Source: Sphaerolaimus hirsutus
Lineage: Eukaryota; Nematoda; Chromadorea; Monhysterida; Sphaerolaimidae
Assembly (NCBI GenBank): GCA_964036195.1
Contig: OZ038452.1
Coordinates: forward strand, 8,426,704-8,490,703
Direction: 5' to 3'
Length of the DNA: 64,000 bases
The position numbers were made by a program, and so were the translations under genes. This document shows positions 3,272-51,763 of this stretch, piece after piece. Each line of letters starts with the position of its first letter. The first letter of the stretch is position 1. Below the pieces are notes generated by a model. The model was given only the letters and a program-made list of their open reading frames with translations, ran no database searches and had not been told where the DNA came from.

Positions 3272-5503
3272 TCAATAACAAAATCCCTGATCAATGGTAC
3301 ATGGCATATTGCCAGGAACTGTGAACAACCGATCAGTTTGAATGCAAGCGCACAGCCGCCGGCCCAAAGCGGTCGCGCTCAAAGCTGGTGATGAACTGAT
3401 TGAAAGGCTTTTTGGTAGGTAAGTGCCGCCTGCTGCTTTAAAGCGGATGGCGCCGTTTGCCTGTGGAGGGGATTGTTCAAGGGTCATGGTGGAGGTATGA
3501 AAAGTGATGAAAAAGGTAAGACCGTTCACCGGGCTCTGTAAACAAACAGCCCCCCCCCCAGATGTTGTTATTCAAATGTTGTTTTTCCACCAATACTCAC
3601 ACTTGTCTGAATGTTGATGCTCCCTAGCGCAGTAGCGTTGAAAGCTCTGGATGTGAACGCATTGCCTTCATTACCGCGGAATGCCACATTTTCTACTGAG
3701 AATTTCAGCTGCTCACCAACTGGAGCTCGCAGCTGTAAGTAGAATTTTTTAAAAATTTTTTATTTTATTGTACATAAAATTTATTATTAATAAACACAAA
3801 GATGGATCTTCTTCACTAACCTTGTTAGTGATGATTTGGTGCATCGATATTTCCTTTATCTTTTTCTCAGTAATAAACTTTGGCAGACTGGCTTTGAAGA
3901 ATAGCATGGGATTTTTCACGTCATTTGAATAAATCTCAAAATCCTTGACATTTTCGAGTCTAATGCGGCCATCCTCCAAGATAAATTGCGCCTTCATGTT
4001 TGTTGTATTGTGTGGCAGCTGACTTGACAACAACACCTGTGTATTTTGGCAGGTTTTAGTCACACGACTTTCTATTCGATGTTAATATTATATAAGAAAA
4101 AATACTCGATAGTCGATATAAAAATAAATAGCTCTTCGACATAACGATTGGTGGACAGCGTGAATCCGACATTCGATAAAGGTCATCTAAAAAGGCCCAT
4201 CTCTGTCTGGATATTATATAACCCTGACATTTGCTTGTGGAAAACAGAAACAAATCTATAACCAACCCTGGCACCCTGCACATATAAATCTTTGCCCTTG
4301 TAGCCGCCGATGTGTCCATCACTCGTCACAACTGAATTTAGCTCCACATTATCCCCTCTGAATTCTACGATGTGCTCAGTTTCTCCTGAAAAACCCAATC
4401 GCAAATGAATAATTATAATGAAAATTGATCACTTTATATATTGTATTTTGACCCTACATGGGTTGGATAGATTGCAAATAGCTCCTCCGGAGGGATAGAT
4501 AATTAACTTTTTTAAATCTATAAAAATGTGCGAAAATTGAAAAAAAATTTGGGTTAAATTTTTCTAAAATCGCGCCAGATAGCTAGATCGCTGTGTGATT
4601 TAGGAGGGGGAGGGTTTCACGGTAAAGTAGCCAAAAAATTTGCCTCTGGGATAAATACCTAGATAGCTGAGCAGAATCCGGGTTAGATAGATAGCTGTGC
4701 GATTGGGGGGGGGGGGTACCCTCCCATTCCAGACCTGTGTCAGCATTGGGCAGCTGGTGGAACTGCAACTGGTCCATCCCGCGGTGACCGACGCGTAGAA
4801 ACGACAGCAGCAGTAGGTTGCACTGTGTTGCATACTTTATTGTAGGTTGTAGTACATTTGCGCGTGGAGACCCAGCGGGATAGGCATGTTGGGCAAGTGA
4901 AGATCACAACACAAGACACAGTCACCACTCTTTTGTGCAACAAAAAAATTAATTGCAATAATCAAAAAGCTATTTAATCACACATTACCCACAATCGTTT
5001 CGATTTCTCAACTCCCATTCTGCATACGCAAATACGCAACCATGAACCAAACCCCACCGCAGAAAACCAACCAAGAGCGTGATGGCGGCCAAAAGTGCCA
5101 GCACCGCCAACGCGATCAGCAACAACATGAGTTGCCTGCCGCGCAAGCCGCTCGACCTGGGGCACTACCAGACCCTGCAACAAGCCATGTAAAATGTTAA
5201 ATGTCATTTAAAATGCCCTGTGAAATGGTCATATACATGACGTATACATACCTACGTTTACATGGCGTAAAAAACGAACGTTTACCATTTTACAGGGCAT
5301 TTTACATGACATTTGACTATTTACATAACATTTTACAGGGTCTGGGAGTGGTACCTGTCCTCGTCCGGGCCCGGGTCGCGCCAATTTGCATAGTTTGCAG
5401 CCGTGACTGCGTGTTTTTGGCACTTAAAAGATTTCGGGGCGTTGGGATCTGAAACTTAGAACTTACCTAGCCCCACTGGCTTCGCGTCACGCTCGTAATA
5501 CAT
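3272..5503 (-). CDS. SGCB: Beta-type sarcoglycan (8 exons, 319 aa)
   Basis: Single-pass type II membrane glycoprotein of the sarcoglycan subcomplex in the dystrophin-glycoprotein complex of muscle membrane. Exons in transcription order: 5467-5503, 5355-5448, 5072-5156, 4735-4822, 4267-4385, 3821-4036, 3601-3732, 3272-3460; total 960 nt with continuous phase. Visible marks: an N-terminal DEDR...SSGLRGR stretch like vertebrate beta-sarcoglycan, followed directly by a hydrophobic segment (LMLLLIALAVLALLAAITLL), RVGHRGMDQLQFHQLP just outside the membrane, FRGNEG in the ectodomain, and a Cys-rich C-terminus (LCACIQTDRLFTVPG, then MPCTI and GFC) matching the conserved extracellular cysteine motif. 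The length is close to human beta-sarcoglycan (318). The first exon is the weak point: its gap to exon 2 is only 18 nt, so the true first exon may lie elsewhere. Shares a divergent promoter interval with PRODH. Confidence 0.9.
4440..4737. mobile_element. hAT-like element forming most of sarcoglycan intron 4
   Basis: Shares the motifs TTGACCCTACATGGGTTGGATAG-type start, CTCCTCCGGAGGGATAGATA, poly-G run and TCCCATTCCAGACCTG end with the elements at 6058-6519, 7165-7682 and 9068-10340, whose ends read CAGGGGT. Read on the minus strand the terminus is CAGGTCTGGAATGGG, and its CAG/GT is exactly the donor of sarcoglycan exon 4. The other end is decayed and its position approximate; no target duplication could be seen. 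Confidence 0.6.
5163..5350. mobile_element. CACTCCC-family MITE that constitutes sarcoglycan intron 2
   Basis: Inverted ends CACTACCAGACCCTG (left) and GGGTCTGGGAGTG (right); the body is a long imperfect hairpin with ATGTAAAATGTTAAATGTCA and TTTTACAGGGCATTTTACAT motifs. It is bracketed by the 5-bp direct repeat ACCTG (CAGGT on the minus strand) at 5155-5159 and 5353-5357. On the minus strand the upstream copy gives the donor AG/GTAC and the downstream copy the acceptor CCAG/GTCG; splicing there joins DEDR to SSGLRGR in frame, matching the uninterrupted vertebrate beta-sarcoglycan arrangement. Confidence 0.8.
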
Positions 5504-5764
5504 TGTTAGTGGGAATTTTTGATCGGTTTAAGTGGATGGCCGAAGTTTTAATCCTTCTACCGGAATGAGGATTCCCTATTTCATTATTTGGCAAGACTCC
5601 AAAAAATATTTTCCTGAAGACCAAGGTTGCGTTGCATACCATTTTTCACATCAAAGTGAAATTTTGGCAAGTTGCCCTGTGCAAAAACGGATCAGCTGAT
5701 CTGGGCGCGCCTACGTTGCTATCCGTCAACAGCTTTTTCCTATATTCAGCCGCGACGATTTACA
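5504..5764. promoter_or_regulatory. Divergent promoter interval between sarcoglycan and PRODH start codons
   Basis: The interval separates the ATG of sarcoglycan (minus, 5503) from the ATG of PRODH (plus, 5765). It must hold the transcription starts of both genes unless either has a further untranslated 5' exon. No clear TATA box is placed at a convincing distance from either start. A bidirectional promoter is inferred from layout alone. Confidence 0.45.
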
Positions 5765-8700
5765 ATGATTTCCAAGCAATTAATCAAACAATTTCCGAAA
5801 TATTGCACGGCTGGCAGCGTGAGAATTCTATCCACAAGTGTTCGATTACGGACGCCCGGGGATGCGGAACGTAAAAGCAGTGAGAGGATTGAAGAATGTT
5901 TCAATCGACTCGACTTGTCGTTCCGAAACACGCAGGAGGCTTATCGGGTTAGGTTTATTTCAGTCTGGGGGCACTCCCAGACCATGTTAAGAGCCCTGTA
6001 AAATGACAAACGAGTTTTTTTCTCCATTTTACAGGGCTTTTTCATGACATGACAAAGCAGGGGTTTTGTAGACGGGGGTTCATATAGATAGTAAATCGTT
6101 CCTCCGGAGGGATAGATAGCTGAAATTGTTTGGGGGGTGCTTCGCGGGGGTTCAATATATAGGCTTTTCCGAGGTATAGAAGGAAGAAAAGGGAAAAAAT
6201 CGCTAAAAGTAGCAGAAAAACAGCTAAAAATAGGTATATAAGTACATATAGTACAAAAAGAAGCCGAAAATAGGCAGTACGGAACATGAATAAGAATTTT
6301 GAAGGTGAAAAACTATAAAAAGGTACGAAAATTAGCGATTTTGAGCGAAAATTCTTTAAAATCGTTCCAGATAGCTGGCCTATTGGGGGGGGGGGGGTTT
6401 AGGGGGTAGTACACCAAAATGTTGCCTCCGGGGTAGATAGATAGCTGAGCGGGCATTCGGGATAGATAGATAGCTGGCGGATTTGAGGGGTAACCCCCAA
6501 CCCCCCTACTAAACCCCTGTGACAAAGGTCACCCGACGGATAAAATTACGGGACATTTTACATGACTTTTGGTACTTTGCATGACGTTTGACGTTTTACA
6601 GGGCATTTTAAACGGTCTGGGAGTAGCATGCAATAACACCCAGTAAGTTTTTCAGCGTCGTACAAAGTTGACAAAGTCGTACTTTTGCACATGGAAAACT
6701 GCGCAGCAAACTTTATCAACAAACATGGATAAATGTGTCTCACTGCACATCGCTTCGTTTTCCCGCCGATGATTTTGCGTAACTGATTCTGCATGTGCAA
6801 AATGTGCGCCAGCTTGCCTACACTCTAAAAATTCAAAAGTTCACATTTTAAAAGCACCTCATACCTTAAAAACGCAGTCGAAAACGAACTACGAACTGGT
6901 GCGGGCGCTGTTCGTTCTGCGCATGTGCGACGTGCGGCCGCTGGTGCACAACAACGAGGTGGTGCTCAAGGCCGTGCGCAAGTTGCTCGGCCAGCGGCTC
7001 TTCGAGTGGCTCATGCGCGCCAGCATATATGGACACTTTGTCGCCGGTAGTACACAGCAGGAGGTTTGGTTTATGAATGAGCGAGTGAAGTTTGGTTTTG
7101 CAAAATCGAAATGATGAGAAGTGTGTTGAAAAACTAGAACTTTGGAAAACAGGTTTCAGTGCTTCAGGGGTATCTTGAATTTTGACCCTCCGAGTGGTTG
7201 GATAGATAGCAAATCGCTCCTCCGGAGGGATAGATAGCTGAAAAATTTTCTGGGGGGGTTTGGGGGGGGTTGTGGTGGCTCGATATATAGGCTTTTTCGG
7301 GGCATAGAAGGAAGAAAAGGGAGAAAAATCGCTAAAAGTAGGTGTAAAATAGCTCAAAATGGGTATACAAGAGCATATAATACTTAAAATAGCTGAAAAT
7401 AGGCAGTTAGACGCATGAACCAGTGATTTTGGAGGTGAAAATCTATATATAGGTATGAAAAATAGCGATTTTGAGCGAAAATTGGGGTATAGTTTCTGAA
7501 AAATCGCTCCAGATAGGTAGGCTGAGCGATTTGGGGGGGGGGGTTTAGGGGGTAGTAGCCAAAAATTTTGCCTCCGGGATAGATAGATAGCTGAGCGGCC
7601 TCCGGGATAGATAGATAGCTGGGCGGTTTGGGGGGGGGGGTAACCCCCCCCCCCCCCAACCCCCCCCCATTCGAGACCCCTGCAGTGCTTGCACCGTCAC
7701 GTTGCCTCATGCATCATATTCATGTGATTAAACAAAGGGCGTGTATTTCATCGCACAGTTTTTCTTTCTGACACACGCTTTTACGCCGGCAAGTCATCTA
7801 CCCACCAATATCAAACTTAAAAACCTCATAAATACGATATAAACGACTCAGATCAGGCCGACGGTGATGCGCATGCGCGACTACGGCGTGAAGAGCATCA
7901 TGGACTACTCCGTGGAGAAGGACACCGTCGAGGCGGACGAGGTCATCCAGGAGGAGGAGCTTGTCGAGGTGGACGCTCAGGACGCTTTGCCGCTGGTCAG
8001 TGCGTTTTTTGATCGATTTAAGTGACGAGAGTGATTGATTGTTTGGATGATGATGATTGATGATTTCAATAGAAATGTAAGAATATGGGAAATGCATGGT
8101 ATTTTTTGCGGTGTTGAACCATGCTTTGTCGTATCCAATCCTATCAAAAGGAATACGAAATTTACGGTATTTTTGATAATTGTTGATAGCCCAAATTGTA
8201 TCCAAAGGCCCAAATGCTGAAATTTCCAGAATTTCGGCGAGTAATGTTTAATTAATCACGCACTAAAAATATTCCGCACTCCCCAACATTATTCGCACAG
8301 CCCAAACCGGTACCAGCGGAAGACGCAAAAAGTCTGGCCGCCAGCCAATTGGCAGAATCTTTGGAACGCTACAAAGGGTACCAGCCATTTTGGGACAGGC
8401 GGGAAGGTGTGGTCAGCGCTAGGACTTACTTTTATCGCGGCGAACCAGAGTGTGACAGAAATATGGAGATTTTTTGCGACAGCGCCAGGGCTGTGGCGCA
8501 GGTTTGTGCATTTAAAGGTTTCAGTTGCGTCGGGGCTAGGGCTGGCAACAATAAATTTTGAATTGCAGATGAAATTTTTAGTACTTTCTCACTGGTATTT
8601 TGCGAAATTTTCGCGCGCAAGCGCCACTTATTTGATGTATGTACCTGTATATGTTGACTCACAACCATATTTTGCCTCTGCTAAAAAACAGTTTCGAATA

Positions 8701-11700: not shown

Positions 11701-14700
11701 TTTTTCCGTGACGTGGCTGCGGTCTCGTTTGAATTCTATTATTCACTATAGTTTCTACTATTCAAACCATTGTGGGGTATGGTCCGTATTTATTTAAATA
11801 TGTATTTACACGCGCAGTAAATCGCGTTTAAATATTCCGTATTTATATCCCCGAATCATTTGTCAGCAGGGACGTATCCAGGATTTTTGAGCGGGGGGGG
11901 CTGCTTGTTTACGGAGGCCGGCGAGCGGGGGGGGGGGGGCTCAGCCCCCCCCCCCCTAAAATTTTACGTACGAAGTGGCGGAATGGCGCCATTAGTAGGC
12001 GCAACGCCATGGCGCTATTGGCGTTGGCGCCAACGACATGGAACGCTGTATATGTATGTAAATATACATACAAATACAGCAAACAGCACACAATTGAGTA
12101 TATTTATACCGATTTTGGCCACAGGGAGCAAATATGCTGATAATACATCACGTCTGGTGAAAAATACGCGCTTGCGCGCAAAATTTTTTTACGCTGACGT
12201 TGAAAAAGTGGCATTTTCCGGCCACTTTCTGGTCTCACCCCGGGAAGGGGGGGGCTGCAGCCCCCCTCCCGCCCCCCCCCCCTGGATACGGCCCTGTTTG
12301 TCAGGGATGTTATTTTTCGACATACTATTGACTGGGGAGTTGTTCGAGCGGAGGAGGCTTGCTCAAGTTTGCTGGGAGTAGACCCCGAGATAAAAAAAAT
12401 TAATTATTATTGAAATATTTTAGGCGCGAAACGTACGTTGGTTGTACTCGACTCCGCCTTTCTCTTTTTAAATATTTTTCGTTTTGTGAAAATGCTGGCA
12501 TAAGTATCCTGCTCGACTAAGACATAAGTAATTTTGGGCGCATACTTAGCGGTCCACCAAATATACGCGTTCATTAAAATTATCACAATCAATAATCCTC
12601 AACCCCCCCCCCCCTAGATACAACGGCAACGGGGGTATAGTATTCAACACATATCAAGCCTACCTCCGCTCAACCCTAACCGACGTCCAAATGGACATGC
12701 AGTGGGCGCGTCGGGAAAACTTCCACTTCGGCTGCAAGTTGGTCCGCGGCGCGTACATGCAGCAGGAGAGGCAGCGCGCTCAGGCTATTGGCTATGATGA
12801 CCCCATAAATCCTGATTATCAGGTGGGTTTGTGGGGTAGTGCTGGGAAGTGAAGGTGATTGTGAGTGGAAGGTAGATAGAAGATTAGATAAGGATTGGGA
12901 AAGATCAGGGTTTTTGGTGGTATGGAAAAAATGTCTTTGTGTTCTTGTTTCAAACACGTTGATTTAAAGAAATCAAAAAAATTAATGATAATAAACGTTT
13001 TCTACCCTGTGATATTTTCTTTACAAATTGAATTTTTTAAATAAAAATCAGCTAAAAAATCAAGTGCCAGTTCTGTCCTAGTTTTTATGTCTTCAGTATG
13101 GAGCAGCCTGATTTACCTTCCAGTAAACTACTGTTAAATAGGTAATCTCAATTGACTCATCAAGTTTTATACATCATCTAAATTTTCACGTTTTGCCGTC
13201 GATATCTTACAATCACGGTGAACATTGGTGCTGTACCATGCGAGAACGCACAGTGTACAATACAATACAAAGTAAGAATTGTGGATTGAGATCACACGCT
13301 CCTGGGCCACACAATTTCCTCAAACGAGACACTGGTCCAGTGAATCGATTAATCGATCGCCCCGCTGTCTGCATGTGATTTCTCAGCGGCCAACAATTGT
13401 CAATGCACGCCGCTCCTGTATGCGTTTAAAAACGCCAGTAATTAATGAGGCATAACGAACAGGAATGCATACATATATCGTAGCCGTACCTATTTTACCC
13501 GACGAAAACTCCAATAATATCATGGTAACCATATCATAAATATATATTACCTATCCACACATATTATGTGAAATCCCGAGGTAAGTTTTCCCGTCCCATT
13601 TTGTGCGTATTTCATTTTCGAAAATCTTACATCTTTTCAAATATGTCATCCATTTTCTGAGTGACACCTGTCTACTCTGGAGTGGCGCCGACTCTTATCA
13701 GTTATTTTGCCGATTTTGTCAAGCAAGAATTTCATATAAGTCTTGAGATACATGAAGATATGTCTAATATATTCACCCCCTGTGGGCAAAACATCTACTC
13801 ACTCTCTGACAGGTAGTCTGTTATCCCCATTTCAATCAAAAGTGGATATTACCATTTAAACAATTCCGCAGTGCCCAGACATTGCTTCACACCGCACGTG
13901 GCACACGTATTGGGTGTCTAGTCGAGCGTCATGCCCGCCACAGCTGCCATAATGATAATCTGCATGAAGTTATTATAGATTAGAAATCTTAAGTTTATTA
14001 TCCATCAGGATATTTATTTAAATGTGTCTGTGTTTTCCGACCATATGTACATTGAAATTATCACCAGGCCGAGTTGCCTCGTCTGCGGACATCTCCATTG
14101 TGAGTATCCATTTATGTTACATTTGCACAAATCTCAATTTACATTTCCACAAATGTCATTTTACATTTGCACAAAACAGTGTACCTTATCAAAAGTATGA
14201 CGACTAAAAGTGATTTGTCTCACACCTAGGGAACGTCGCCACTGACGCCTCACTTCCATTTGTCGCCACGCACTGCGGAACCCGTTGTCTGTCGAGTATC
14301 GTCGAGCAAGCGAGCTGCCTGCAGTGGTGGGGAAAAGAGTATCGTGGAGATTATATTTATAATGTAGAGCATTTGACGATGTTAAATACAAGTTTGTTTG
14401 ACCTAATAAGCAAAGCCGTGTACTCATGTACCAAACTCCCACCCCTATAAGTCACATGATCAAACGGTTATCCGCCTCTTTCTGAACCCGCGAATCCCAC
14501 ACATGGTTTTATCAACTACAAATTGTGTTTACCTGGAAAAGTGTCCAGATTTCGCAACAAAATGCAGATATTTCCCATGTGTATATTTTCACTGGGTCCA
14601 GTAAGACAGAATGTCACGCACACGTTCCTTACAGGAGTGGGAGATTTGACACGTACTATACGGCTTCATCCGTCATCCATGAGAAACCCAACATTAGCAT

Positions 14701-23700: not shown

Positions 23701-26700
23701 AACATCAACCAATGGTATTACCAGGGCCATAAATAGCAGTATTGAAAACCAACCCCTTTGTCCGCCGTGTGCATTTCCACGGCCACCCCGATCATTGCGA
23801 TTTCCTCCGCGTTGTTGTCCAGTGCCCCTGCCATTCCTGCCGTGGCCCGCGACACGCTGGCCACCGTTGGCATTTGCATTTTGCTGTTTTGCAACATTTT
23901 CGAGGATAGCGGGCATGTACCCGCGTCGCAAGGTCGCATTGCTCCGTTGCTGTGTGGGGGGTGTCTGAATGATGTTAGTATATAACACCTTACTTGTAGT
24001 TGTATTGATATTTCTTGACATAGAATTAATAAAACGGTTTGGTTTACAATCGCATACGGAAACGTTATCACAGACAGTTTCCAGTTTGTCATACAATTTT
24101 ACATATATATAACTTTCACACAAAAAATTTGCGTTTGAGCACATACGTACCTTTTCGAGGTACGTTTCTGGAGCGATCATATTGGCTTGGACGTTTGCGT
24201 AAACGTTGGCTGTGTCTCTCGCATCCCATTGTTTGGCATCATCGAAGGCCGCGAATAAACCTTCATCGGCCAATTCTTCTATTTCGCCCGTCTCCGTTCG
24301 ATGGGAAAATGCGCTTTCTTGGCTTATGGTCGAGCGTACCTCCATCCACGCCATGCCGTATAAATTCATATACGGTGCCAGGAAGTACGGTCCATGGGAC
24401 GTAGGTATTGCGCACTGCATAGGTAGCATATATATTTGTGAAAATACGTAAACATGTGAGCATGTATCACACGTAAAAACGTTTGACGCATTCATAGATT
24501 CCATATTTGAGACTTTCGTGACATACATTCTATTCAATATTAGTACGTCCCTAGATCTGGGATTTTTCCTATTCAAAATATTAAAAAACAAGCTCACTTC
24601 AAGTTTGCCCTTGATACTTCCGCATAACAGCGCGCCCTGCCAGCCCGAAGGTGGAAATTCACCAGCACATCTAAGTAACACTGTTTTACTATCAAGTGGA
24701 TGCTCAAAAGTTTTCCAAAAAGTTTTTACAGTGGGGGTGAATTTATCCAAAATATTTTTCAGACTCAATTTATTCAAAATTTTAAACTAAGTAAAATTAA
24801 ATGCCTCTTCCCACTCCACCCAATCAATGTGTACTTATAAAACATTTTTTCTTGAAAAACAGTTATCGAAAAGGATTGTTTACTGGTGGGAAAAAACAAT
24901 CGACTTCACCAAATTTGGAATGTTCTCAAGGAGCGAAAGGCTAAATATCCCTCACATTGCCCACAAAGGTAACCTAAGGGGGTGGGCCGTGTGGGTTGTG
25001 AGGGTCACATTGTAGGGGAATTTCCAACCCCATGTACGGTGCTACATGGGATCAGTAATTCAACATAAACAGGCATTTTGAGAGAATTAGAGCACCGTAA
25101 CAAAAGCACAAAACCCTCTCTCACAACCAAATAAACCAAACACACCAATTAAACCAAACAAAACCAACCAAATCTGTCTTTGGGCATTCCTTCTTCGCCA
25201 GTAAAGCCTCCCTTTTCTTGTACAGGATGTCCACGTAACGCTGGTGAATGCGCGGTTCTTTGTTTGACTGCTTTGCCGGAATATTTGCGCCATCCAGATG
25301 AGCAGCCGTGCGTTTTCCAGATTTAGCGGCAGCCGCAGTCGAGTATGCCATCTGGGTTAGTGTGTCGCTTGGATGATAAATGATAAGTGAAAGTTCAAAA
25401 ATCTTGACTATTTAAGCGAAATCCAGATACTGGATTTCCATGAAACAAGTTTTCCCCAGATCTCAAAAACTGGTTTTTATACTGAACTTGACAATCAGAG
25501 TGGTTTAATACTGAACCTGACGTTCAGGAGACAAATTGCGAAATCTCATTTCGCAATTTGAAAAACAAAAACAAAATTGAAAAACACTACTATTTAATTT
25601 GTCAAAATGTTATTGATTTGCTGCAAAATTGTCTGCTCTGTCAGTGCTCCTAATCTCAACAAATCAATTTTATATTTTGTCAAAAAATTAAGAATTTTTT
25701 GAAGCAGGATACTTCTATTGTAATCCTGATCCAAAAAATGAAAAATTAACTCTGCACATCTTTTTATAAAGCCATCGTATGTGCCAGAGAGTCTCACCAT
25801 TCTTATAAGTTGACTATAAAAAGTGTCATAACCAAGACGCTTTTGCTGATTGGTATCAGAATGAGTGAATCTGATTACCTTAAAGGAAAAGGAATCAGTC
25901 TTGTTAAACACTTCTTGGTTATTTTGACTTTTTATATCAATGGACAGATCTAAAAAATCAGTTTTACTGGCACTACTATTAGTAATATTGATCTCTAAAT
26001 CATTACCATAAATTTTTTGAATGACACTCATCGGATCAAGTCCATTCAGTACCACCCCAAAAACATCGTCTATGTACCGAGAGAAAAATCGCATATTTTT
26101 GATGGTGTCTGCATTAGACTTGTCCGTGCAAAACTTCAATTCTGCCCATGTTAAACAGAGGTCCGCACACATGGGGCTGGAGGCCCCACCTTGCGCAATA
26201 CCTGTAATTTGCTTGAATATTATACCTGCGAAGTTTATATAAGACTCAGTAACCACTAGATGTATGAGGGTTAGTACATCAAAACGATCCAGACAGTGTT
26301 CAGTTGCTATATTAGAGTACCAAGTTTTTTTGTACCCAAAACTCAAGTATTTCTTCTTACTTTTTGTGAAACAAAAAGTAGCAATTTCCTTTAAATTTGT
26401 CAGGATGTACTTTTGAGGGAGAGAGGGGTACATTGAGGAAAAATCGCCACTGAACACTGTCCCTTCACACCCTAACATTTTATACTCCTTCAACTTTCGA
26501 ACCATTTCCAGGGAAGAGTTAATTGACCAAAATGAACAACACTTATTTCTCTCGTGGCACTCAAACAAACCATAGTAGTTGCGCAAATGGGATCTGAAAT
26601 GTTGAAGCGTCTGGTGCAGTAAAAACGATAATCCCTTCATTGAGCTGTGCGTCCCACTAGCTATCGACCTGAATTTATGTGGGTGTTTGTGTAGCTTAGG

Positions 26701-29700
26701 TATTATAAATACATGTGGTAGATTGTTATCAGAATCTGGAATTTTCAAACCATAGGACTTATTTAATTCACCATGCCTTTTAAGTATACTTTCCATACTT
26801 TCATTGACAGGAAAATATGTGGCATTACCTGTCACCAATAGTTTGTCATTTTCAACACCAATTCCTAAGTCTTTGCACAGTACTTCACAGTTATATTTGG
26901 CACACGTTACCACAGCATTGTTTGAAGCTTTGTCAGCTGGCGCCAACACAAATTTTGACAGAACATTTTGTGCCAGCCTCAAATAAGTGTTTCTAGGCAA
27001 ATAAGTATTAACTAGGGTTTCAATGTCTAAGGACAATCGCTGTTTGACCATTTTTTCCAAAAATTCAAAAATCTCAGAACGTTTGTTCACATCTTTAGTC
27101 ACCCGGTCACAAAACAGCGATATTACCCTCATAGATTCCGTAAAAGCTTCCTTATAATCCACTTTTTCAGGTAACACAAACTTGGAACCTTTCTGCAGGA
27201 GCTGTGCCAACGGATCGCACCCGAGAACTTTCAAATCGCCAGTTATGATGTGTCCAGCTGGTGCATGGATGTAATCTGAAATGGCACAGTCACAGTTCGA
27301 TTTTAGTATTTGTAAAAGATCAGTGGTTCCAATGTCACGATAGATTTTATTGTGATTAAAAAATTGGGACGAAATTGGTTGCTTATATTTAAAAACAACC
27401 ATCGGTTTGTTAAGTTTGTAAAAATCAGCTCCAATTATTCTTTTTACCACCTTGCAGTTCAACAAATTTTGCAAATCTACGTTTTCCAAGTATCTATTGA
27501 CATAAAGACTCAGAAACCTAATTGATTTGCGCTCATCTTTTAACTTGGGGCTACCAATATTAAATTTGCACACAAAAGCTTTTACCAGGTAGAGTGTTTG
27601 TAAATCAACACTCTCAAGTAAATTTTTGTCAAAAAGTCTAAAACTGTCAAGTAAAAGTTTCTTTTCCTGGTTATTTAAACCCTTTAGCACACACGAAATT
27701 TTAGAGGCAAGTTGTCTACCTTTTAAACTATTTTCATTGTATAAAAGTGACTCTAAAATAGTGGAAACGTCAACCCGCCCACTTTTTCTATTATTTTTAC
27801 GTTTACCGTGTTTTCGGAACCTTCTAGGTAGTTTCACACCTCCAAATGGAAGATTACCCTTTACCGAATTTTCTATACTCCCAATTTCTTCTGTTGCAAT
27901 ACCAAACCTACGTACTTTATCATTCAGTCCAGCAGGGAATGCTGAACCAGACGCACGAATAAAAAAGTCCTCCATCTGTACAAGATCACCTTGCCGACCT
28001 GTACACAGTATTTGAAAGGTAGGTACATGTTTGGTGGATTTCGCAAAGTGAGAAACTAGTGGAGTGGTTTTACTACCCTTACGTATATCACATAGATGCT
28101 GGCGCATCCTGTCATGAAATTGTTGGCCAGTTTGACCAATATATACAAGTGAGCAACAGCGACACTTTATACAGTAAATGACATTTTGAGTTTTGCAATT
28201 TAAAGGTGTTGTTTCATTGCAAAACAATTTACTGTTGGAGCAAAAACCCTCCAAAAAAATTTGCGAATTAATCATTGGACATAATTTACAAGGATAGTTA
28301 CAAGGTAGTGTTGAGGCGCCGGTACAGTGGATTTTTCTAGTAAGTTTTACAGAGAAAGTGGGTGTACTTTGAAAATCAACTTGAACATAATGTCCATACT
28401 TGTCATTCCCACTTGAAGTTGAATTGATAGTTTGAAAGGAAGTGGACGCTAAACTGCGAGAAAGGGCTGTCCAGGCCCGGACTCTAGGAAACCCTCAGGG
28501 AGGGGTTTTTTTCAAGCGGAACCACCCGCATTTTTCAGAACAAAATTAGTTCATAAAAAATAGACAAAATATCTTGGTCAGCCAATATGGCTACCTCTTG
28601 CAGTTATTAACCTTCATAGTGAACTCAAAAATTCACCACTATGAATGTGTTTAGCGCCCACACTACCAACCTCACACTACTTATGTAAAACCGATGTAAA
28701 TTATACAATCATAATCCTGCCAAACAATCAGCACAAAGAAAATCAATATTGTCAACCACAGCTGCAACGGTCACCTATTGAAAGACAGTTTTGTAAACAA
28801 GGAAAAAGGGGTTCCAAACCTAAACAAGTGAAACATAACAAAAAACTGTCTTTCCTTAGGTGGAAAATGTCCTAAATTTGGAAAACGCCACAAAAAACTT
28901 TTTGAGCGTCAATGGCGAATTGCCAGACCACCACCCAATTACTCCGCCTCCTTACCATTGTCCCACATTTTGCCAGGGACAAACTGCGCGACGATCTGAC
29001 TGTCAGTTGACAGACCAGCGCACTGTTTATCCGTGCCAACTTGTGAGGCACCGGGAAGGAGATCCAAGAAACTGGTGTAGTGCTGCGCTCTCTCACCATT
29101 CACCTTCAAAAGACACCTATTTACTACCTCCACCTTCCCCTTCTGCCAGACATTTTCGGAAATTAATTTGCGCATTAGCGTCACACACAACATTTTCTGC
29201 TCGTAATCAAACTTTGGCAGATTCATGACGCACTGTACCGACTTATCATTCTGGCCCGGGTACCACGGGTTGGGCCACCCGCGCGAGTGCTGGCGCGAGC
29301 CGTCCACCGCCAAGCGAGCATCATCAATGGAACCGCATTGCAGCATGAGCACCGGCGCCTGGCCCTCGCCCACACCCTCGCGGCGCAGCTCCACGCGTCG
29401 ATTTAGGATGCCAGTGGCAGTTTTGTCCGACAACTTGCAGCACCCGGTAAGCACCTTGAAGGTAAAAAAGGCGTTCTATAAATCACTTTGCATTTTACCA
29501 TTTGACTGGAAACTCGGCCAATTTTCAGGAAACTCATGTAAACCAGTATGATGAGGGGGGGGGGAGAAGGGGTCAAGTAAAATTTTTTTTTTTTTTTTTA
29601 AGGAGGGAGAAAAGTAACTAAAATAGCTTTCAGAATCGACATTACTTTTTCGGTCATATTTGACACAAATATTTTCAAGTAGGTGTTTAGAAAACAGGGT

Positions 29701-32700
29701 GTGACCGAACATGATATCGAAGCCCAAAACAACAGCGTAATCAAAAAATGTCAAAAGAAACCAAATTATACTTTTCTAGCCAACTCCTCAAGCGTCTCCG
29801 AACTTTTGGGAACGTTGATTATCCTAATTTGGCACTTCGAACCATCCCTCTGCAAACGCTTGACGTTTTCTTCCAAATCGTCCAAACGTTTGTCCTGTAG
29901 CGCGTCCACGTTTTCTTGCACTTGCAGGTGCCGATCCCACGTGGCCACCAAATCTTCATCCGTGGATTGCTCCAGGGCGTCGCGAAATTGGGCTCGCAGA
30001 CCGGTGGAATGACGCCTCGAATGCCAGCGTGCCAAATCAGGATCCGTGTACATCTGTGTCAGTTTAAAACAAATAAGTTATAACCGGACCACAAGGGCCC
30101 ATTGTCCGTTGCCGAGGCAACAAAATTGGCGACTAACGTTGGACAAGCCAACCGCGCCACAAGAAGCACATAAAATGTGTGAAAAAGGTTTAACATTTTA
30201 CATAGAGGCAACCATAACTTGTGTTTTACAAATATAAGTCAATTCTGACAATGTCTAGGTTGGGGCGGACCACCAGCACCAGGACAAGTCAGAAAAAAGG
30301 CAATAAGTAACACTGTTTTACTATCAAGTGGATGCTCAAAAGTTTTCCAAAAAGTTTTTACAGTGGGGGTGAATTTATCCAAAATATTTTTCAGACTCAA
30401 TTTATTCAAAATTTTAAACTAAGTAAAATTAAATGCCTCTTCCCACCCCACCCAATCAATGTGTACTTATAAAACATTTTTTCTTGAAAAACAGTTATCG
30501 AAAAGGATTGTTTACTGGTGGGAAAAAACAATCGACTTCACCAAATTTGGAATGTTCTCAAGGAGCGAAAGGCTAAATATCCCTCACATTGCCCACAAAG
30601 GTAACCTAAGGGGGTGGGCCGTGTGGGTTGTGAGGGTCACATTGTAGGGGAATTTCCAACCCCATGTACGGTGCTACATGGGATCAGTAATTCAACATAA
30701 ACAGGCATTTTGAGAGAATTAGAGCACCGTAACAAAAGCACAAAACCCTCTCTCACAACCAAATAAACCAAACACACCAATTAAACCAAACAAAACCAAC
30801 CAAATCTGTCTTTGGGCATTCCTTCTTCGCCAGTAAAGCCTCCCTTTTCTTGTACAGGATGTCCACGTAACGCTGGTGAATGCGCGGTTCTTTGTTTGAC
30901 TGCTTTGCCGGAATATTTGCGCCATCCAGATGAGCAGCCGTGCATTTTCCAGATTTAGCGGCAGCCGCAGTCGAGTACGCCATCTGGGTTAGTGTGTCGC
31001 TTGGATGATAAATGATAAGTGACAGTTCAAAAATCTTGACTATTTAAGCAAAATCCAGATACTGGATTTCCATGAAACAAGTTTTCCCCAGATCTCAAAA
31101 ACTGGTTTTTATACTGAACTTGACAATCAGAGTGGTTTAATACTGAACCTGACGTTCAGGAGACAAATTGCGAAACCTCATTTCGCAATTTGAAAAACAA
31201 AAACAAAATTGAAAAACACTACTATTTAATTTGTCAAAATGTTATTGATTTGCTGCAAAATTGTCTGCTCTGTCGGTGCTCCTAATCTCAACAAATCAAT
31301 TTTATATTTTGTCAAAAAATTAAGAATTTTTCAAAGCAGGATACTTCTATTGTAATCCTGATCCAAAAAATGAAAAATTAACTCTGCACATCTTTTTATA
31401 AAGCCATCGTATGTGCCAGAGAGTCTCACCATTCTTATAAGTTGACTATAAAAAGTGTCATAACCAAGACGCTTTTGCTGATTGGTATCAGAATGAGTGA
31501 ATCTGATTACCTTAAAGGAAAAGGAATCAGTCTTGTTAAACACTTCTTGGTTATTTTGACTTTTTATATCAATGGACATATCTAAAAAATCAGTTTTACT
31601 GGCACTACTATTAGTAATATTGATCTCTAAATCATTACCATAAATTTTTTGAATGACACTCATCGGATCAAGTCCATTCAGTACCACCCCAAAAACATCG
31701 TCTATGTACCGAGAGAAAAATCGCATATTTTTGATGGTGTCTGCATTAGACTTGTCTGTGCAAAACTTCAATTCTGCCCATGTTAAACAGAGGTCCGCAC
31801 ACATGGGGCTGGAGGCCCCACCTTGCGCAATACCTGTAATTTGCTTGAATATTATACCTGCGAAGTTTATATAAGACTCAGTAACCACTAGATGTATGAG
31901 GGTTAGTACATCAAAACGATCCAGACAGTGTTCAGTTGCTATATTAGAGTACCAAGTTTTTTTGTACCCAAAACTCAAGTATTTCTTCTTACTTTTTGTG
32001 AAACAAAAAGTAGCAATTTCCTTTAAATTTGTCAGGATGTACTTTTGAGGGAGAGAGGGGTACATTGAGGAAAAATCGCCACTGAACACTGTCCCTTCAC
32101 ACCCTAACATTTTATACTCCTTCAACTTTCGAACCATTTCCAGGGAAGAGTTAATTGACCAAAATGAACAACACTTATTTCTCTCGTGGCACTCAAACAA
32201 ACCATAGTAGTTGCGCAAATGGGATCTGAAATGTTGAAGCGTCTGGTGCAGTAAAAACGATAATCCCTTCATTGAGCTGTGCGTCCCACTAGCTATCGAC
32301 CTGAATTTATGTGGGTGTTTGTGTAGCTTAGGTATTATAAATACATGTGGTAGATTGTTATCAGAATCTGGAATTTTCAAACCATAGGACTTATTTAATT
32401 CACCATGCCTTTTAAGTATACTTTCCATACTTTCATTGACAGGAAAATATGTGGCATTACCTGTCACCAATAGTTTGTCATTTTCAATTCAGTCATAATA
32501 TCTAATTACGCGGTCGGTTCTGACCCAGCCATTCGGACCGCACGCGTTGCCAGACGACCATAGGAGTTGTGTGTGTAATAATATTGAACACGGGATTTGT
32601 GGCAGTGGGGGTAGACCAGGGGTCGCCAAGGGGGTTGCCATCTGCAGCATGTATTTTCTATTAAAGTCGAAAACCGATAAAAGATATGTAGTAGCCTTTT

Positions 32701-35700: not shown

Positions 35701-36605
35701 TGCTTCGGACAGCTGTACGGCATGTGCGATCAGGTGTGATTTTGGGCTGTTTTTTGGTGGTGGTTTGATGTTTGATTGTGATGGGAGGAGCCTTATTGCG
35801 TTCTTTGAAAATGTTCAGTAGGGCTGTGGCTGTGATGTTTTTCGGGGAGTGGTGGGGGGCAGGGTCGTATCCAGGGGGGGGGGCGGGGGGGGGGGGGGGG
35901 CTGCAGCCCCCCCCCCCTCTCCTGGGGCGAGACCAAAAAGTGACCGGAAAATGCGGCTTTTTCAACGTCAGCGTAAAAAATTTTACCAGACTATTATCAT
36001 CGGATTTGCTCCATGTGGCCACATATCATTATAAATACACTCAATTTTGTGTTTTTTTGCTGTTTTGTATGTATATTTACATACATATACAGCATTCCAT
36101 GGCGCTGACGCCAACGCCAATGGCGTCATGGCGTGGCGCCTACTAATGGCGCCAGCGCCATGGCGCCATTCCGCCACTATGTAGCTAAAATTTTAGGGGG
36201 GGGGTTGAGCCCCCCCCCCTCGCCGGCCTCCGTAAACAAGCAGCCCCCCCCGCTCAAAAATCCTGGATACGTCCCTGGTGTGGGGGGGGGGGGTTTCTGC
36301 GCAAGTAAACGCATCACACATCATGTTTACGCATCACTTATAACTTATTTGTCACAGTGAACTTCCATCATCAGGTATCCTTCTCGCTGGGCCAAGCGGG
36401 CTACTCAGTCTACAAATACGTGCCCTACGGGCCCGTGGATGAAGTTCTGCCCTACCTATCGCGTAGGGCGCTGGAAAATTCCACATTGATGGGCTCGTCG
36501 GGTCTGGAAAGGACGCTCATGTGGACGGAAGTGAAGCGTAGATTGGCGGCTGGCCAATGGTGGTACACGCCCAGTCCTCCGCCGCAAAGCACTGTGGTTG
36601 TTTGA
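5765..36605 (+). CDS. PRODH: Proline dehydrogenase, mitochondrial (11 exons, 621 aa)
   Basis: FAD enzyme of the mitochondrial inner membrane that oxidises L-proline to pyrroline-5-carboxylate and passes electrons to ubiquinone; fly orthologue sluggish-A. Exons: 5765-5947, 6878-7063, 7852-7995, 8301-8501, 8794-8862, 8943-9047, 10395-10656, 11564-11642, 12618-12822, 35533-35733, 36375-36605; 1,866 nt with continuous phase. The start gives a basic, hydroxylated, acid-poor N-terminus ([13 protein letters not shown]) typical of a mitochondrial presequence. Family marks: [101 protein letters not shown] and the substrate-binding arginine pair in YLSRRALEN. Exon 7 carries an EF-hand-like loop ([12 protein letters not shown]). 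Intron 9 is 22.7 kb and full of mobile DNA. AATAAA follows the stop by 113 bp. No frameshift or stop was seen in any exon. Confidence 0.97.
5972..6625. mobile_element. CACTCCC-family MITE in PRODH intron 1, split by a hAT-like insertion
   Basis: Left end CACTCCCAGACC at 5972 and right end GGTCTGGGAGTAG at 6613-6625 are inverted. Inner motifs CATTTTACAGGGC and TTTTACAGGGCATTTT match the sarcoglycan copy. A 462-bp hAT-like element (6058-6519) with its own duplication interrupts it, so the MITE is the older insertion. It begins 25 bp after the PRODH exon 1 donor. Confidence 0.75.
6058..6519. mobile_element. hAT-like non-autonomous element (CAGGGGT ends)
   Basis: Ends CAGGGGTTTTGTAG and CTACTAAACCCCTG are inverted; the flanking 8-bp duplication TGACAAAG at 6050-6057 and 6520-6527 is perfect. 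CAGGG-type ends with 8-bp duplications are typical of hAT transposons. No transposase is encoded; the core has GATAGATAGCTG repeats and poly-G runs. Confidence 0.85.
7165..7682. mobile_element. hAT-like non-autonomous element in PRODH intron 2
   Basis: Ends CAGGGGTATCTTGAAT and ATTCGAGACCCCTG are inverted, and the 8-bp duplication CAGTGCTT (7157-7164 and 7683-7690) is perfect. Same family as 6058-6519: CTCCTCCGGAGGGATAGATAG, GATAGATAGCTGAGCG and long G runs. No coding capacity. Confidence 0.88.
9068..10340. mobile_element. hAT-like element in PRODH intron 6, with a nested element at its end
   Basis: Left end CAGGGGTCTCCAATGGG follows AATGTCGT; the right end (GGAGACCCCCG) is followed, once the nested 9456-10333 element is removed, by AATGTCGC, a 7 of 8 match to the left duplication. 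Internal motifs (CCGGAGGAGCGATT, GCTATCTATC) mark the same family in inverse orientation to 7165-7682. It starts 20 bp after the PRODH exon 6 donor. Confidence 0.75.
9456..10333. mobile_element. MITE with ATCGAATATCGAT subterminal arrays and 10-bp duplication
   Basis: Ends AGGGTTCAAACGATAT and ATATCGTTTGAACCCT are inverted; the sequence ACCCCCGAAT stands on both sides (9446-9455 and 10334-10343). Both arms carry tandem units of ATATCGATATCGAAAATTTTG, with a non-repetitive AT-rich centre (about 9640-10070) and no plausible ORF. The duplication length does not settle the superfamily. Confidence 0.8.
10765..11505. repeat. Repeat pair with CCGCCCTTG motifs in PRODH intron 7
   Basis: Two direct repeats of about 75 bp (10958-11030 and 11428-11502) share GAACCGCCCTTGGA, GGAACTCAAAAACGT and TTTTGAGTGTGC; inverted partners such as AAGGGCGGAATT lie at 10790-10920. 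Probably remains of one or two mobile elements; no termini could be defined. Confidence 0.5.
11867..12296. mobile_element. hAT-like element, CAGGGACGTATCC family
   Basis: Ends CAGGGACGTATCCAGG and CCTGGATACGGCCCTG are inverted; the 8-bp duplication TTTGTCAG (11859-11866 and 12297-12304) is perfect. The core holds long G and C runs and GGCGCCAT motifs. An inverted copy is at 35860-36277. It sits in PRODH intron 8. Confidence 0.88.
12823..14655. other. AT-rich part of PRODH intron 9 without recognised feature
   Basis: Begins at the donor GTGGGT of PRODH exon 9. Apart from a few short ORFs with no coding character I see no gene, RNA or transposon terminus. The 3' end of the minus-strand LINE may reach into about 14.2-14.65 kb. 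Confidence 0.4.
16550..18518. mobile_element. hAT-like element with GGAAAACGG arrays carrying a BEL/Pao fragment
   Basis: Ends TAGGGTGTCAAA and TTTGACACCCTA are inverted; flanks GGCCGCCC (16542-16549) and GGCCACCC (18519-18526) match at 7 of 8 positions. Both arms are arrays of GGAAAACGGAAA units (16567-16800, 18190-18510), and the centre is a retrotransposon pol fragment. A right end with the same array and GACACCCTA is at 46200-46450. Confidence 0.75.
16866..18200 (+). pseudogene. BEL/Pao retrotransposon pol fragment (broken)
   Basis: Translated pieces match BEL/Pao pol: [20 protein letters not shown] upstream, then after a stop near 17119 a reverse transcriptase stretch with [37 protein letters not shown] and the catalytic-region YVDNF, then a remnant of the post-RT AYDPIGF motif near 18075. 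The longest open part is 17181-17969. No LTR, gag or integrase is visible, and the fragment is wrapped between GGAAAACGG arrays, so it looks captured rather than independently inserted. Confidence 0.85.
18763..18883. mobile_element. Small MITE with TACCGTATTTCC ends
   Basis: Left end TACCGTATTTCCGCG and right end GGAAATATGGTAT are inverted around about 120 bp of C-rich repeats (GAATTATCCCC, GAATAAGCCCC). The same ends and repeat type occur at 47960-48365 and 51875-52000. Confidence 0.6.
22701..24671 (-). CDS. Spliced exons upstream of the LINE: RGG-rich, ORF1-like
   Basis: Minus-strand exon-like blocks with good splice sites: 24151-24414 (88 codons, acceptor TATGCAG, donor GTACGT), 23754-23964 (acceptor CATTCAG; encodes an RGG-box stretch, [18 protein letters not shown], typical of RNA-binding proteins), about 23530-23670, and about 22740-23367 (acceptor CACATGTAG; contains CKTFRLGQ and QKCAKC). 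A fragment at 24604-24671 ([16 protein letters not shown]) weakly resembles the helical C-terminal region of some LINE ORF1 proteins. These exons lie directly upstream of the esterase ORF and may be its ORF1. Exon joins inside this part were not all phase-checked. Confidence 0.5.
24672..28500 (-). mobile_element. Penelope-like element with N-terminal GIY-YIG domain (copy 1, near full length)
   Basis: One uninterrupted ORF runs 28275-25594 (893 residues from the first Met; the frame is open to about 28497). Upstream and N-terminal cysteines ([17 protein letters not shown]) surround a GIY-YIG-type endonuclease start (VYIGQTGQ near residue 45). The reverse transcriptase follows: [35 protein letters not shown] near residue 695 and the catalytic RYIDD near 732. 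Penelope-like elements usually carry GIY-YIG at the C-terminus; an N-terminal position is known for the Chlamys and Naiad groups. The 3' untranslated part (24672-25593) ends at TTACTTA and is shared with copy 2. The 5' limit is approximate. Intact frame implies recent activity. Confidence 0.85.
28956..34808 (-). CDS. Spliced minus-strand gene in PRODH intron 9: coiled coil and RRM-like ORF1
   Basis: Phase-checked exons: about 34312-34047, 33851-33670, 33624-33607 (18-nt microexon), 33411-33286, 33076-32837, an exon starting 32641; and, beyond Penelope copy 2, 30053-29772 joined to 29454-28956. Donors include GTCAGT, GTGAGT, GTGAGC and GTAATT; one intron of 45 nt contains TACTAAC. A possible start ([12 protein letters not shown], 34808) has a good donor but its link to the next exon was not resolved. 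The 30053-28956 product has a charged coiled-coil-like stretch then IRIINVP and an RRM-like region, as in LINE ORF1 proteins. Two Penelope elements interrupt it. It could be the ORF1 of the downstream LINE, a separate element, or a captured gene. Confidence 0.55.
30304..32486 (-). mobile_element. Penelope-like element, 5'-truncated copy 2
   Basis: Nearly identical to copy 1 over its whole length, from the shared 3' end TTACTTA (30304) to a break at 32486 inside the ORF (after [11 protein letters not shown] in copy 1 terms). The RT core including [11 protein letters not shown] and RYIDD is intact; the GIY-YIG region is missing. Differences are scattered single bases. 5' truncation with a shared 3' end is expected of target-primed reverse transcription. 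A clear target duplication was not seen. Confidence 0.85.
35860..36277. mobile_element. hAT-like element, CAGGG..CGTATCC family, in PRODH intron 10
   Basis: Ends CAGGGTCGTATCCAGG and CCTGGATACGTCCCTG are inverted; flanking octamers GTGGGGGG and GTGTGGGG match at 7 of 8. The core matches 11867-12296 in the opposite orientation, so two copies lie in neighbouring introns of the same gene. Confidence 0.8.
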
Positions 36606-49500: not shown

Positions 49501-51763
49501 GTGACATTCACAATCACATTGGCCAAAATTTGACCTTGTGCACTTTTTACTAGGTAAACTAGGTATTTTTGCTTGTGACACCGAAAAATCCGCTTGTGAC
49601 ATTCACAAGCGCACAAGCACTTACGCCGCCAATGTGTGTAATGTCCCAAAAAAAAATTTATCAAATAATCATTATTTAAGTAGTTATACATTTACCGTCG
49701 AAATTTACACATTCTACGTCAACATTTCACATCAAACATTTTACGTAATCAAAAAAATTTGACGGTAAATTAATAACTACTTAAATAATGATTATTTGAT
49801 AAATTTTTTTTGGGACATTACACCCAATTACTAGAACTATCTCATTCTGAAATTTCAATGCTGTACCTTTGTCCATTTTGATGTAATCAATTTTACGACG
49901 TAATCATTTCACGTCAAACGCCGCTGAGCTGTAATTCCGGCTTAAAACACAGACATTGGCTATTTATCGATGATTTTCCATATGCTGGTTTGTTGTCAAC
50001 ATCCTTTGAGTTTGAGTGTATACTCGGCGGACATCACACTTATGGAAATCACCATAACCCATCTGAAAACTGAACCAAAAACTATACAGTATTTTCATCA
50101 TAATGTTTCGTTTTTACTATGGAGTAATTAATTGCGAAATATTCACAAGACCTTTTCATTTAATTATGGTAGTATTCTGCACATACTTTGCTGTCCGCCG
50201 AGTATACCTAACCTACTTTTTTACTACATATAAGTGATCGAAAAGCGCCAGGAAAAATGGTGCCAGGTGCCAATGGCGCCATGGCGCCATTCGAAAAAAT
50301 GGCGCCAGAGAAAAACGCGCCAAGCGCCAATGGCGCCATGACGCTGGCGCCCTTTGGCGCCATTCCATCACTGCTACATATTTACTAAGGTAGATAGATG
50401 TTAATGCGGACAATTACCCGAATCCTTTTGTATGTGCAAATCGATTTCGATGCCAGCTCGCAGATCAGCTAATTATTTTATAACGTTACTAGATAACGCC
50501 AGAATTTTCACTGGTTGATCCGGGACCGGGTACACATGTAAATAGTTACCTATACTTTTACGTTGCACCTTTTACGTTACTTAGGTACTTTTTCATTTGA
50601 TTTGAAACAACCGCAGTGCAGCTTCAAAGTGATTTGATGCAACTGTTCTATTTAAAGAGAATGTGAGCCGTGAGGCAACTGCGATTTCCTGTTTTAAGTG
50701 AATTTCAAGCAACTGCACAGTTTGTTTGGTGTCGTTAGGGCGATGACATTCCTCCACCACATCTTCACACAAGCACAAACAAGCGTTCCAGTGTGCTCGT
50801 GGTGCATCAGCTCGGTGGGCATGTTCATGGTGGGCGTGCAGCGGTCGATGGAGTGTCTGCTGCTGCCGCACATGGCCTGGCAGCTCGCCTTCGTGCTGTC
50901 GCTGCTCGGCCAGGGGGCACTCCCGGACCCTGTAAAATGCCGTGTAAAATGCAAAATGCAATGCAAAATGTCTAAAGTCATATAAATGCCCTGAAAAATG
51001 GCAATCGTACGTTTGCCATTTTACAGGGCATTTACATGTCTTTTGACGCTTTGCATTACATTTAGCATTTACACAGTTTTGCACAAGGTCTGGGAGTGGC
51101 ATCAGATCGTTCTGTATGTCGGCCTGGCTGTGGTCAGCCGCATGCTCAGCGCCTCCGCGGCGCTGTTTTGTGCCACAAACGTATGTCTAATTATACTCGA
51201 ACTCTGGCTCCTGTCGCTCAACTTTGGTCAGTTACCGTAGCGTACTCGAAAACTACGCGCACGCGAGTACGCGGTAAATACATTTACATATACTTTAAAA
51301 AAGTTATATACCCACTTTATAAAGTTAAAAGTACACGCGTACAGAGAAAATGTATTTTTGTTTGCTAAAATCACAATTTTCTGTCGCTAAAATCAAACAA
51401 TTTTGAAGAAATCATATCATTTTTCTACAAAATACTAAATAAAATAATCATTAAAAAGGACATCTATTATGTCTTCCAGTGTAAAACTCACTCTCACATG
51501 TAAAACGTAGTAGCTTTTACGTTTTCAAGGTAAAAACTTTTTACTAAAAAGTACTCGCTCTTACATTTTCTATATTTTTCGCTATCATATACTTCGCTTC
51601 CATATTTGTGAAACTGCATTTCACGACTACAAATTAAAAAAACCCAAACAACGCAGCGTGCGTGTCGCTGCTGCGAACGCGCAACTCGGTCAGCACGATG
51701 ATCAGCGAGCAGGGCGGCAGCAGCGACGTTCTGCAGCGGCGCAATGCAGTCAAGTGCGCCAAC
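46502..51763 (+). CDS. Multi-pass membrane protein, unidentified (partial, 6 exons)
   Basis: Not recognised. Phase-consistent exons: 46502-46665, 48428-48515, 49127-49272, 50811-50931, 51106-51180, and an exon near 51655-51763 whose acceptor is uncertain. Hydrophobic segments: VSYTGLLPLACTCAA, AFFAGVLLVTA, HMAWQLAFVLSLLG and IVLYVGLAVVSRMLSASAAL; between them a polar stretch EYLTRDGHLFYTDFFEQKG. The segments suggest at least four membrane passes, so a transporter or membrane enzyme is possible but not shown. 5' and 3' ends were not found. Introns hold several mobile elements, and the fourth (50932-51105) is a CACTCCC-family MITE whose end supplies the donor. Exon GC content and codon use match PRODH and sarcoglycan. 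Confidence 0.6.
46750..47885. mobile_element. hAT-like element with TAGCATTGAAAAAA ends
   Basis: Ends TAGCATTGAAAAAA and TTTTTTCAATGCTA are inverted, and the duplication TGTGTGGT (46742-46749 and 47886-47893) is perfect. Subterminal GAGATTTTCTCGAGAG-type repeats. No transposase. Confidence 0.85.
47960..48365. repeat. Poly-G/TATTTCGAGG repeat cluster
   Basis: TATTCGAGGGGGTCTGTTATTT-type units ending GAGGAAATATGGTAT. Same family as 1480-1605 and 18763-18883. Lies in an intron of the membrane-protein gene. Confidence 0.5.
48545..48988. mobile_element. PIF/Harbinger-like foldback MITE with TTA duplication
   Basis: TGCTCCGATTACAGCTC and GAGCTGTAATCGCAGCA form near-perfect ends of arms that pair for about 190 bp (GGCGTAAAATTGACC). 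TTA stands on both sides (48542-48544, 48989-48991), the usual Harbinger-type target. Confidence 0.8.
49346..49946. mobile_element. Foldback element (AAGCCGGAATTACAG ends) with a nested MITE
   Basis: Arms AAGCCGGAATTACAGCTCAGCGG and inverse pair for more than 120 bp. A 164-bp element at 49470-49633 (ends TAGGCGGCG and CGCCGCC) with the 9-bp duplication GTGTGTAAT interrupts the left arm. Subterminal TTACAGCTC is shared with the 48545 MITE. Confidence 0.75.
50230..50372. repeat. GGCGCC-cored repeat element, complete short copy
   Basis: Begins AAGTGATCGAAAAGCGCCAGG and ends GGCGCCATTCCATCACTGC, showing both inverted ends around GGCGCCATGGCGCC units. Confidence 0.75.
50918..51098. mobile_element. 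CACTCCC-family MITE within a coding region of the membrane-protein gene
   Basis: Ends CACTCCCGGACCCTGTAAAATG and GGTCTGGGAGTG are inverted around a hairpin core with GTTTGCCATTTTACAGGGC. The coding frame reads into it (GQG) and out of it (IVLYVG). Splicing from the donor CCT/GTAAAA inside the left end to ATCAG/ATCG just beyond the right end keeps the frame. Confidence 0.7.

Follow-up and report, generated by a model that had tools for sequence, protein, structure and literature searches.

Can a transposable element that lands in an exon become a complete intron, and which of its splice sites would then come from the element and which from the target? The beta-sarcoglycan gene in the window (the whole stretch of 64,000 nucleotides that was analysed, C3:8426704-8490703) raises this question, and searches in the same genome (348 Mb) were used to answer it. 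Judged from the DNA, the element in this gene (element 1) is very probably a non-autonomous cut-and-paste MITE whose insertion into a CAG of a beta-sarcoglycan exon created a new putative spliceosomal intron.

The putative intron of beta-sarcoglycan

The original prediction held that a MITE forms an entire intron of this gene, with its target duplication (TSD) supplying both splice sites. The features of the locus are the following:

3400-5521, minus strand: the gene of beta-sarcoglycan, with limits that are approximate and some uncertainty at several exon ends
5157-5354, minus strand: 198-nt putative intron with GT-AG ends and a net change of 0 nt
5160-5354, minus strand: element 1, a 195-bp MITE, with T-end GTACCACTCCCAGACC at 5354 and G-end GGGCACTACCAGACC at 5160
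5157-5159: TSD copy, CTG on the plus strand and CAG in the transcript, putative 3' splice site
5355-5357: TSD copy, CTG on the plus strand and CAG in the transcript, final three bases of the upstream exon

The predicted inverted repeat is present, with arms at 5163-5229 and 5284-5350 (67 nt, 84% complementary), as is the direct repeat ACCTG (5155-5159 and 5353-5357), and the whole putative intron is taken up by element 1. As predicted, the reading frame is kept once the element and one copy of the duplication are removed, and the flanks on the minus strand read ...DPGPDED|RSSGLRGRQLMLLL... across the junction. Their assignment to beta-sarcoglycan was also borne out: the joined exons match Pfam Sarcoglycan_1 (E 9e-11, or 2e-13 when another junction is given two more residues), although this match begins at residue 33, just past the element 1 junction. 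Across the junction itself there is a single PDB alignment, to chain 9c3c_b (E 0.00025, over DEDR..GLRGR), and the match to chain 8yt8_B covers the sequence from GLRGR onward only. The gene model is incomplete, with about 36 residues after LPNADT missing relative to the human protein.

Element 1 might instead have entered a pre-existing intron whose old ends were lost. A second copy of the family, element 2 (5968-6629), does sit in an apparently ordinary intron, namely intron 1 of PRODH, about 19 nt past the donor (by eye); it has other repeat sequence inside and no matching duplication. In the putative beta-sarcoglycan intron, however, the element alone is left, with no other intron sequence, and the duplication adjoins both exons. 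For three other copies, uninterrupted paralogues exist (see below). Human SGCB, which is not known to have an intron at DEDR and whose intron after codon 81 corresponds to the next intron here, also counts against this origin, which we regard as highly improbable.

Element ends, target duplication and relatives

A BLAST search of the genome with element 1 gave at least 95 matches at 40 scored places, out of 978 first-look candidates. The genome-wide search for the terminal pattern, proposed earlier as a check, was carried out and found 2957 exact T-ends after CAG or CTG (1604 and 1353, respectively) and 0 for the reversed-pattern control; the TIR pattern had 0 matches in viral and prokaryote contigs. 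For comparison, the window, 39 other BLAST places (among which L048 repeats the window) and 20 loci chosen by the T-end pattern were used. Paired ends in these loci gave 67 copies, of which 64 were left after removal of 3 duplicates; 11 CAG copies originate from the pattern-selected loci.

The two ends of the family are unlike, the T-end being GTGCCASTCCCAGACC (GTGCC..) and the G-end GGGGCASTCCCAGACC (GGGGC..), and 59 of the 64 copies have one of each. CWG adjoins both ends in 46 of the 64 paired copies, where the number of Gs at the G-end was chosen by the script so as to find CWG, and the W, on which this choice exerts no bias, is the same on both sides in 39 of the 46. Identical CWG stands on both sides of 38 of the 59 complete copies, and the T-end starts with GT in 35 of these. 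The predicted 5-bp duplication was not upheld: because GT follows the second TSD in only 8 of the 38 copies, and because the empty site of another copy (L043, see below) has a single CAG, the TSD is 3 bp (CWG, here CAG in sense). A 4-bp TSD was dropped once more copies were compared.

The claim that the duplication supplies both splice sites is not supported: it provides the CAG of the acceptor and the CAG at the exon end, and the donor GT is the element's own end (GTACC in element 1, GTGCC in the commonest form of the family). In place of the earlier reading we infer a division of labour, with the GT of the T-end as donor and the CAG of the TSD as acceptor. The MITE would have inserted into an exonic CAG. 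The family duplicates 3 bp (CWG), and with the T-end lying 5' in the beta-sarcoglycan transcript the junctions read CAG|GT...CCC CAG|. For the spliceosome the donor would then be the terminal GT of the element and the acceptor the second CAG, the protein would be unchanged by such splicing, and the family would have acted likewise in other genes. With one of the two letters possible in CWG, the insertion would itself create a 3' end in AG, and the T-end would give GT; this would be a simple route from MITE to intron.

The TIR of CACTA elements starts at CACT, and their TSD is unspecific. This class was rejected, as most copies have GTGC or GGGG separating CAST from the TSD and the TSD is CWG; PIF/Harbinger in the narrow sense was rejected as well, as it requires a TWA TSD. 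Because of the CWG TSD, to which the GGG of one terminus may be added, the family appears to belong nearest to NuwaI within the PIF/Harbinger (PHIS) superfamily. For the NuwaI group, the available part of its description (PMC4482050) gives a CWG TSD, TIRs usually starting with GGG, and animal hosts including one crustacean. The G-end here begins with GGGG; unlike what that text describes, the other end begins with GTG, only a non-autonomous element was seen, and no transposase with these ends was found.

An amplified DDE_Tnp_4 family is present in the genome (at least 163 matches, with 150 scored of 306 candidates; for example C3:8274064-8274696), and the matches listed mostly contain four TGA each. 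This suggests that they share a short intron or that the family had decayed before it was amplified. No DDE_Tnp_4 match was seen to share the ends of the MITE family; around four DDE places, which lie on C1 at less than 18.6 Mb, a comparison by eye with the exact T-ends listed gave none within 50 kb.

Introners are already known, copepods included: the available part of one survey names copepods among the hosts and reports introners in just two animal groups (PMC9860276; Gozashti et al. 2022). As there described, introners are multi-copy transposable elements with TIRs and TSDs that form whole introns, as would be the case here, and that of Chrysochromulina, which has a 4-bp TSD, resembles the proposed mode of element 1 in that it brings its own 5' site and obtains the 3' site from the target. 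In contrast to the introners in that text, the present family has a 3-bp CWG TSD, unlike ends and GT on one end only. In a literature search by titles and the beginnings of abstracts, with subscription papers and preprints largely outside its coverage, nothing joined introners with Harbinger elements or CWG targets; the one match for introner together with Harbinger was a work on fungi. The CWG mode was not found described in the literature searched.

Copies in other genes and their empty sites

For 20 other copies that looked coding by eye, the flanks were joined without the element and one TSD and compared with Pfam. In six of the 20, a match better than the curated cut-off runs through the junction; the remaining 14 have no match of this strength, and 12 of them gave nothing useful. 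These six, two matches below the cut-off, and two further copies in the window are:

L066, CAG, T-end first: OSCP1 (Pfam 4.9e-19)
L085, CTG, T-end first: OSCP1, second copy about 0.8 kb farther (Pfam 7.1e-17)
L043, CAG, T-end first: WHEP (Pfam 1.4e-13)
L010, sense CAG, G-end first: Myb/SANT, DNAJC2 type (Pfam 2e-11; gapless to DNAJC2 2m2e)
L074, CTG and CCG, T-end first: Neur_chan_LBD, nicotinic-type receptor (Pfam 1e-18)
L040, ATG on both sides: 7TM_GPCR_Srx, a GPCR (Pfam 2.3e-5)
L026, CTG: chemoreceptor (7tm_6 8e-5, below cut-off)
L023: EGF (Pfam, below cut-off)
50914-51102, plus strand: element 3, in the gene of a 4-TM protein, where it separates LSLLGQ from IVLYVG, with the G-end first in sense
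2176-2429: element 4, a diverged copy in a GC-rich, coding-like stretch

The TSD of element 3 is CAG (50911-50913 and 51103-51105), and exact removal gives GG-AG; its host gene has weak Pfam family matches only. As in introners, similar sequences occupy putative intron positions of several unrelated genes, and their likeness reaches both ends.

Thirteen joined flanks, strung together to 2080 nt, served as a query against the same genome, and element-free matches across the junction were obtained for three of the 13 sites:

C14:18304806, 93% identity: tandem paralogue of the WHEP gene (L043), with one CAG
C15:10905797, 85% identity: paralogue of the 4-TM host gene of element 3
C16:12619985, 79% identity: paralogue of the receptor gene (L074)

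The last match extends just 13 bases past the junction, yet its translation reads KFGSWTYDG onward. The other 10 flank sets, beta-sarcoglycan among them, gave no empty site, and the joined-flank search of the same genome found no relative for beta-sarcoglycan itself; at the L026 junction, chemoreceptor paralogues at 25-31% identity run across. The sequences show insertion into exons with a 3-bp CWG duplication and with the frame kept. The earlier introner reading is supported in that a multi-copy MITE fills the putative intron exactly and three other exonic copies have uninterrupted paralogues; its detail of a TSD that supplies both splice sites is not. By its sequence, the family behaves as an introner on a probable Harbinger-superfamily (NuwaI-like) MITE.

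Such an exon insertion could also be spliced differently. A second in-frame GT donor (GTAAAA) lies 18 nt inside the T-end of element 1, and its use would leave six element codons in the protein; in elements 1 and 3, CCT|GTAAAA joined to the CAG acceptor keeps the frame and brings in no stop, and the PDB match with the six residues is not worse (25.5 vs 24.2 bits). The Pfam scores do not discriminate (50.5 and 50.7 bits), but in joined OSCP1 (two sites) and WHEP the matched profile positions equal the residues, the joined SANT sequence shows no gap against 2m2e, in every case without an insert, and the inner donor has no AG before it. We consider use of the inner donor quite unlikely and keep the terminal GT as the preferred donor. 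The insertion may, on the other hand, be unspliced, young, possibly polymorphic and gene-disrupting; copies with TG, CG or GG at their precise ends in conserved exons are as expected if some are unspliced. Against this, it is conserved genes that carry the copies (OSCP1 even two) with their flanking frames intact, and the GT-AG arrangement is present at beta-sarcoglycan, which makes an unspliced element 1 unlikely.

Two further loci were noted. In a SMYD-like gene (by eye), a likely exon lies between two family members that are spaced by about 350 bp (L059:401 with CAG and L059:753 with CTG). The gene flanks of L067 recur on a small contig (C709:12255-14483), with about 2 kb between them there versus about 0.3 kb.

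Splice-site pairs, target letters and other repeats

A precise join at CTG copies gives GT-TG, and inverted copies (element 3, L010) would need a GG donor, unless a GC donor that adds one codon or a GT donor that adds six is used. Within the scanned ranges, no GT-AG pair that spares the gain or loss of several residues was present for the second OSCP1 copy (KLYDL|MTMACKYQ), a GPCR (CEM|IYFP) or a third gene (EDAL|VASGA); L040 had no in-frame splice pair, L085 and L071 had only pairs deleting or adding at least two residues, and all pairs for L012 used a GC donor and added 12-21 nt. Modest in-frame AG alternatives exist at L018, L026, L074 and L075. CTG copies in exons would need GT-TG splicing and inverted ones GG donors, both of which speak against the simple model. 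Transposon-born introns with such ends might be spliced in this genome (CTG insertions as GT-TG, inverted ones as GG-AG), and any exonic CWG would then be a safe landing site, but we find this rather doubtful. A general habit of GG donors is not visible, because the PRODH donors placed by eye are all readable as GT (one possibly GC).

Human GT-TG introns have the ends that CTG copies would need; the available part of that report (PMC2374985) describes verified alternative sites in 36 human genes, whereas GT-TG is here suggested by DNA alone. The GA- and GG-donor introns of Eurytemora affinis (PMC5714493) are recent and idiosyncratic, with AG before the non-GT donor, and inverted copies here would be AG|GG; unlike here, no repeat origin is reported for them, and intron position 3 is mostly A versus GGGG in this family. 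With thousands of copies in both orientations and with both target letters, some with uninterrupted paralogues, the family amounts to a natural experiment on accepted splice-site pairs.

The coding character of the flanks was scored by a codon model for which window genes alone served as training set, for 57 copies (59 less 2 with short flanks) and with mispaired flanks as control; the element 1 case is not independent in this model, because the exon next to that element was part of the training. A score of at least 6 in some joined frame was reached by 13 of the 57 copies versus 3.9 by mispairing; at other thresholds the observed and mispaired numbers were 19 vs 10.5 (4), 7 vs 1.5 (8), 3 vs 0.8 (10) and 1 vs 0.4 (12). 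The sense TSD of the 13 best cases is CAG in 10, CTG in 2 and ATG in 1 (8, 1 and 1 without L063, L066 and L067, which come from CAG-picked loci), and the T-end comes first in 9, with 4 inverted (GG at the donor). Sense CAG is favoured by this test of putative coding flanks. Among the pattern-picked loci on C1, Pfam-backed exonic copies number 2 of 12 for CTG (L074 and L085; 4 given to Pfam) and 1 of 20 for CAG (L066; 5 given to Pfam), and CTG is for this reason without clear counter-selection there. By eye, L071, L075 and perhaps L072 and L084 are exonic CTG loci, and L059, L067, L068 and perhaps L054, L061 and L062 exonic CAG loci; two CTG places inside fetched CAG loci (one being L059 at 753) were left out of the CTG count. 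On CAG versus CTG, the codon-score test and the count at pattern-picked loci do not agree, and each has small numbers. A first codon model, trained partly on the tested flanks, was dropped as evidence in favour of the window-trained one, and a plain joined-ORF test proved powerless in GC-rich flanks (29 CAG copies, 21 observed vs 21.9 expected by mispairing, 60 nt).

Another repeat family (TCCGGAGGGATAGATAG.., with G-runs) lies in beta-sarcoglycan and PRODH introns (4437-4728, 6084-6490 and 7171-7660). The beta-sarcoglycan intron that holds it begins ACACAG|GTCTGGAATGGGAGGG (by eye) and the PRODH copy contains GGTCTCGAATGGGAGGG, for which reason this may be a second intron-making family. PRODH itself (5766-36602, plus strand) is divergent from beta-sarcoglycan and has roughly 23 kb between its Pro_dh matches at 12550-12849 and 36309-36602. 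The window has a stretch of unknown bases at about 44.8-45.2 kb, and a 2.2-kb direct repeat (24672-26855 and 30304-32487) has 99.5% identity between its copies.
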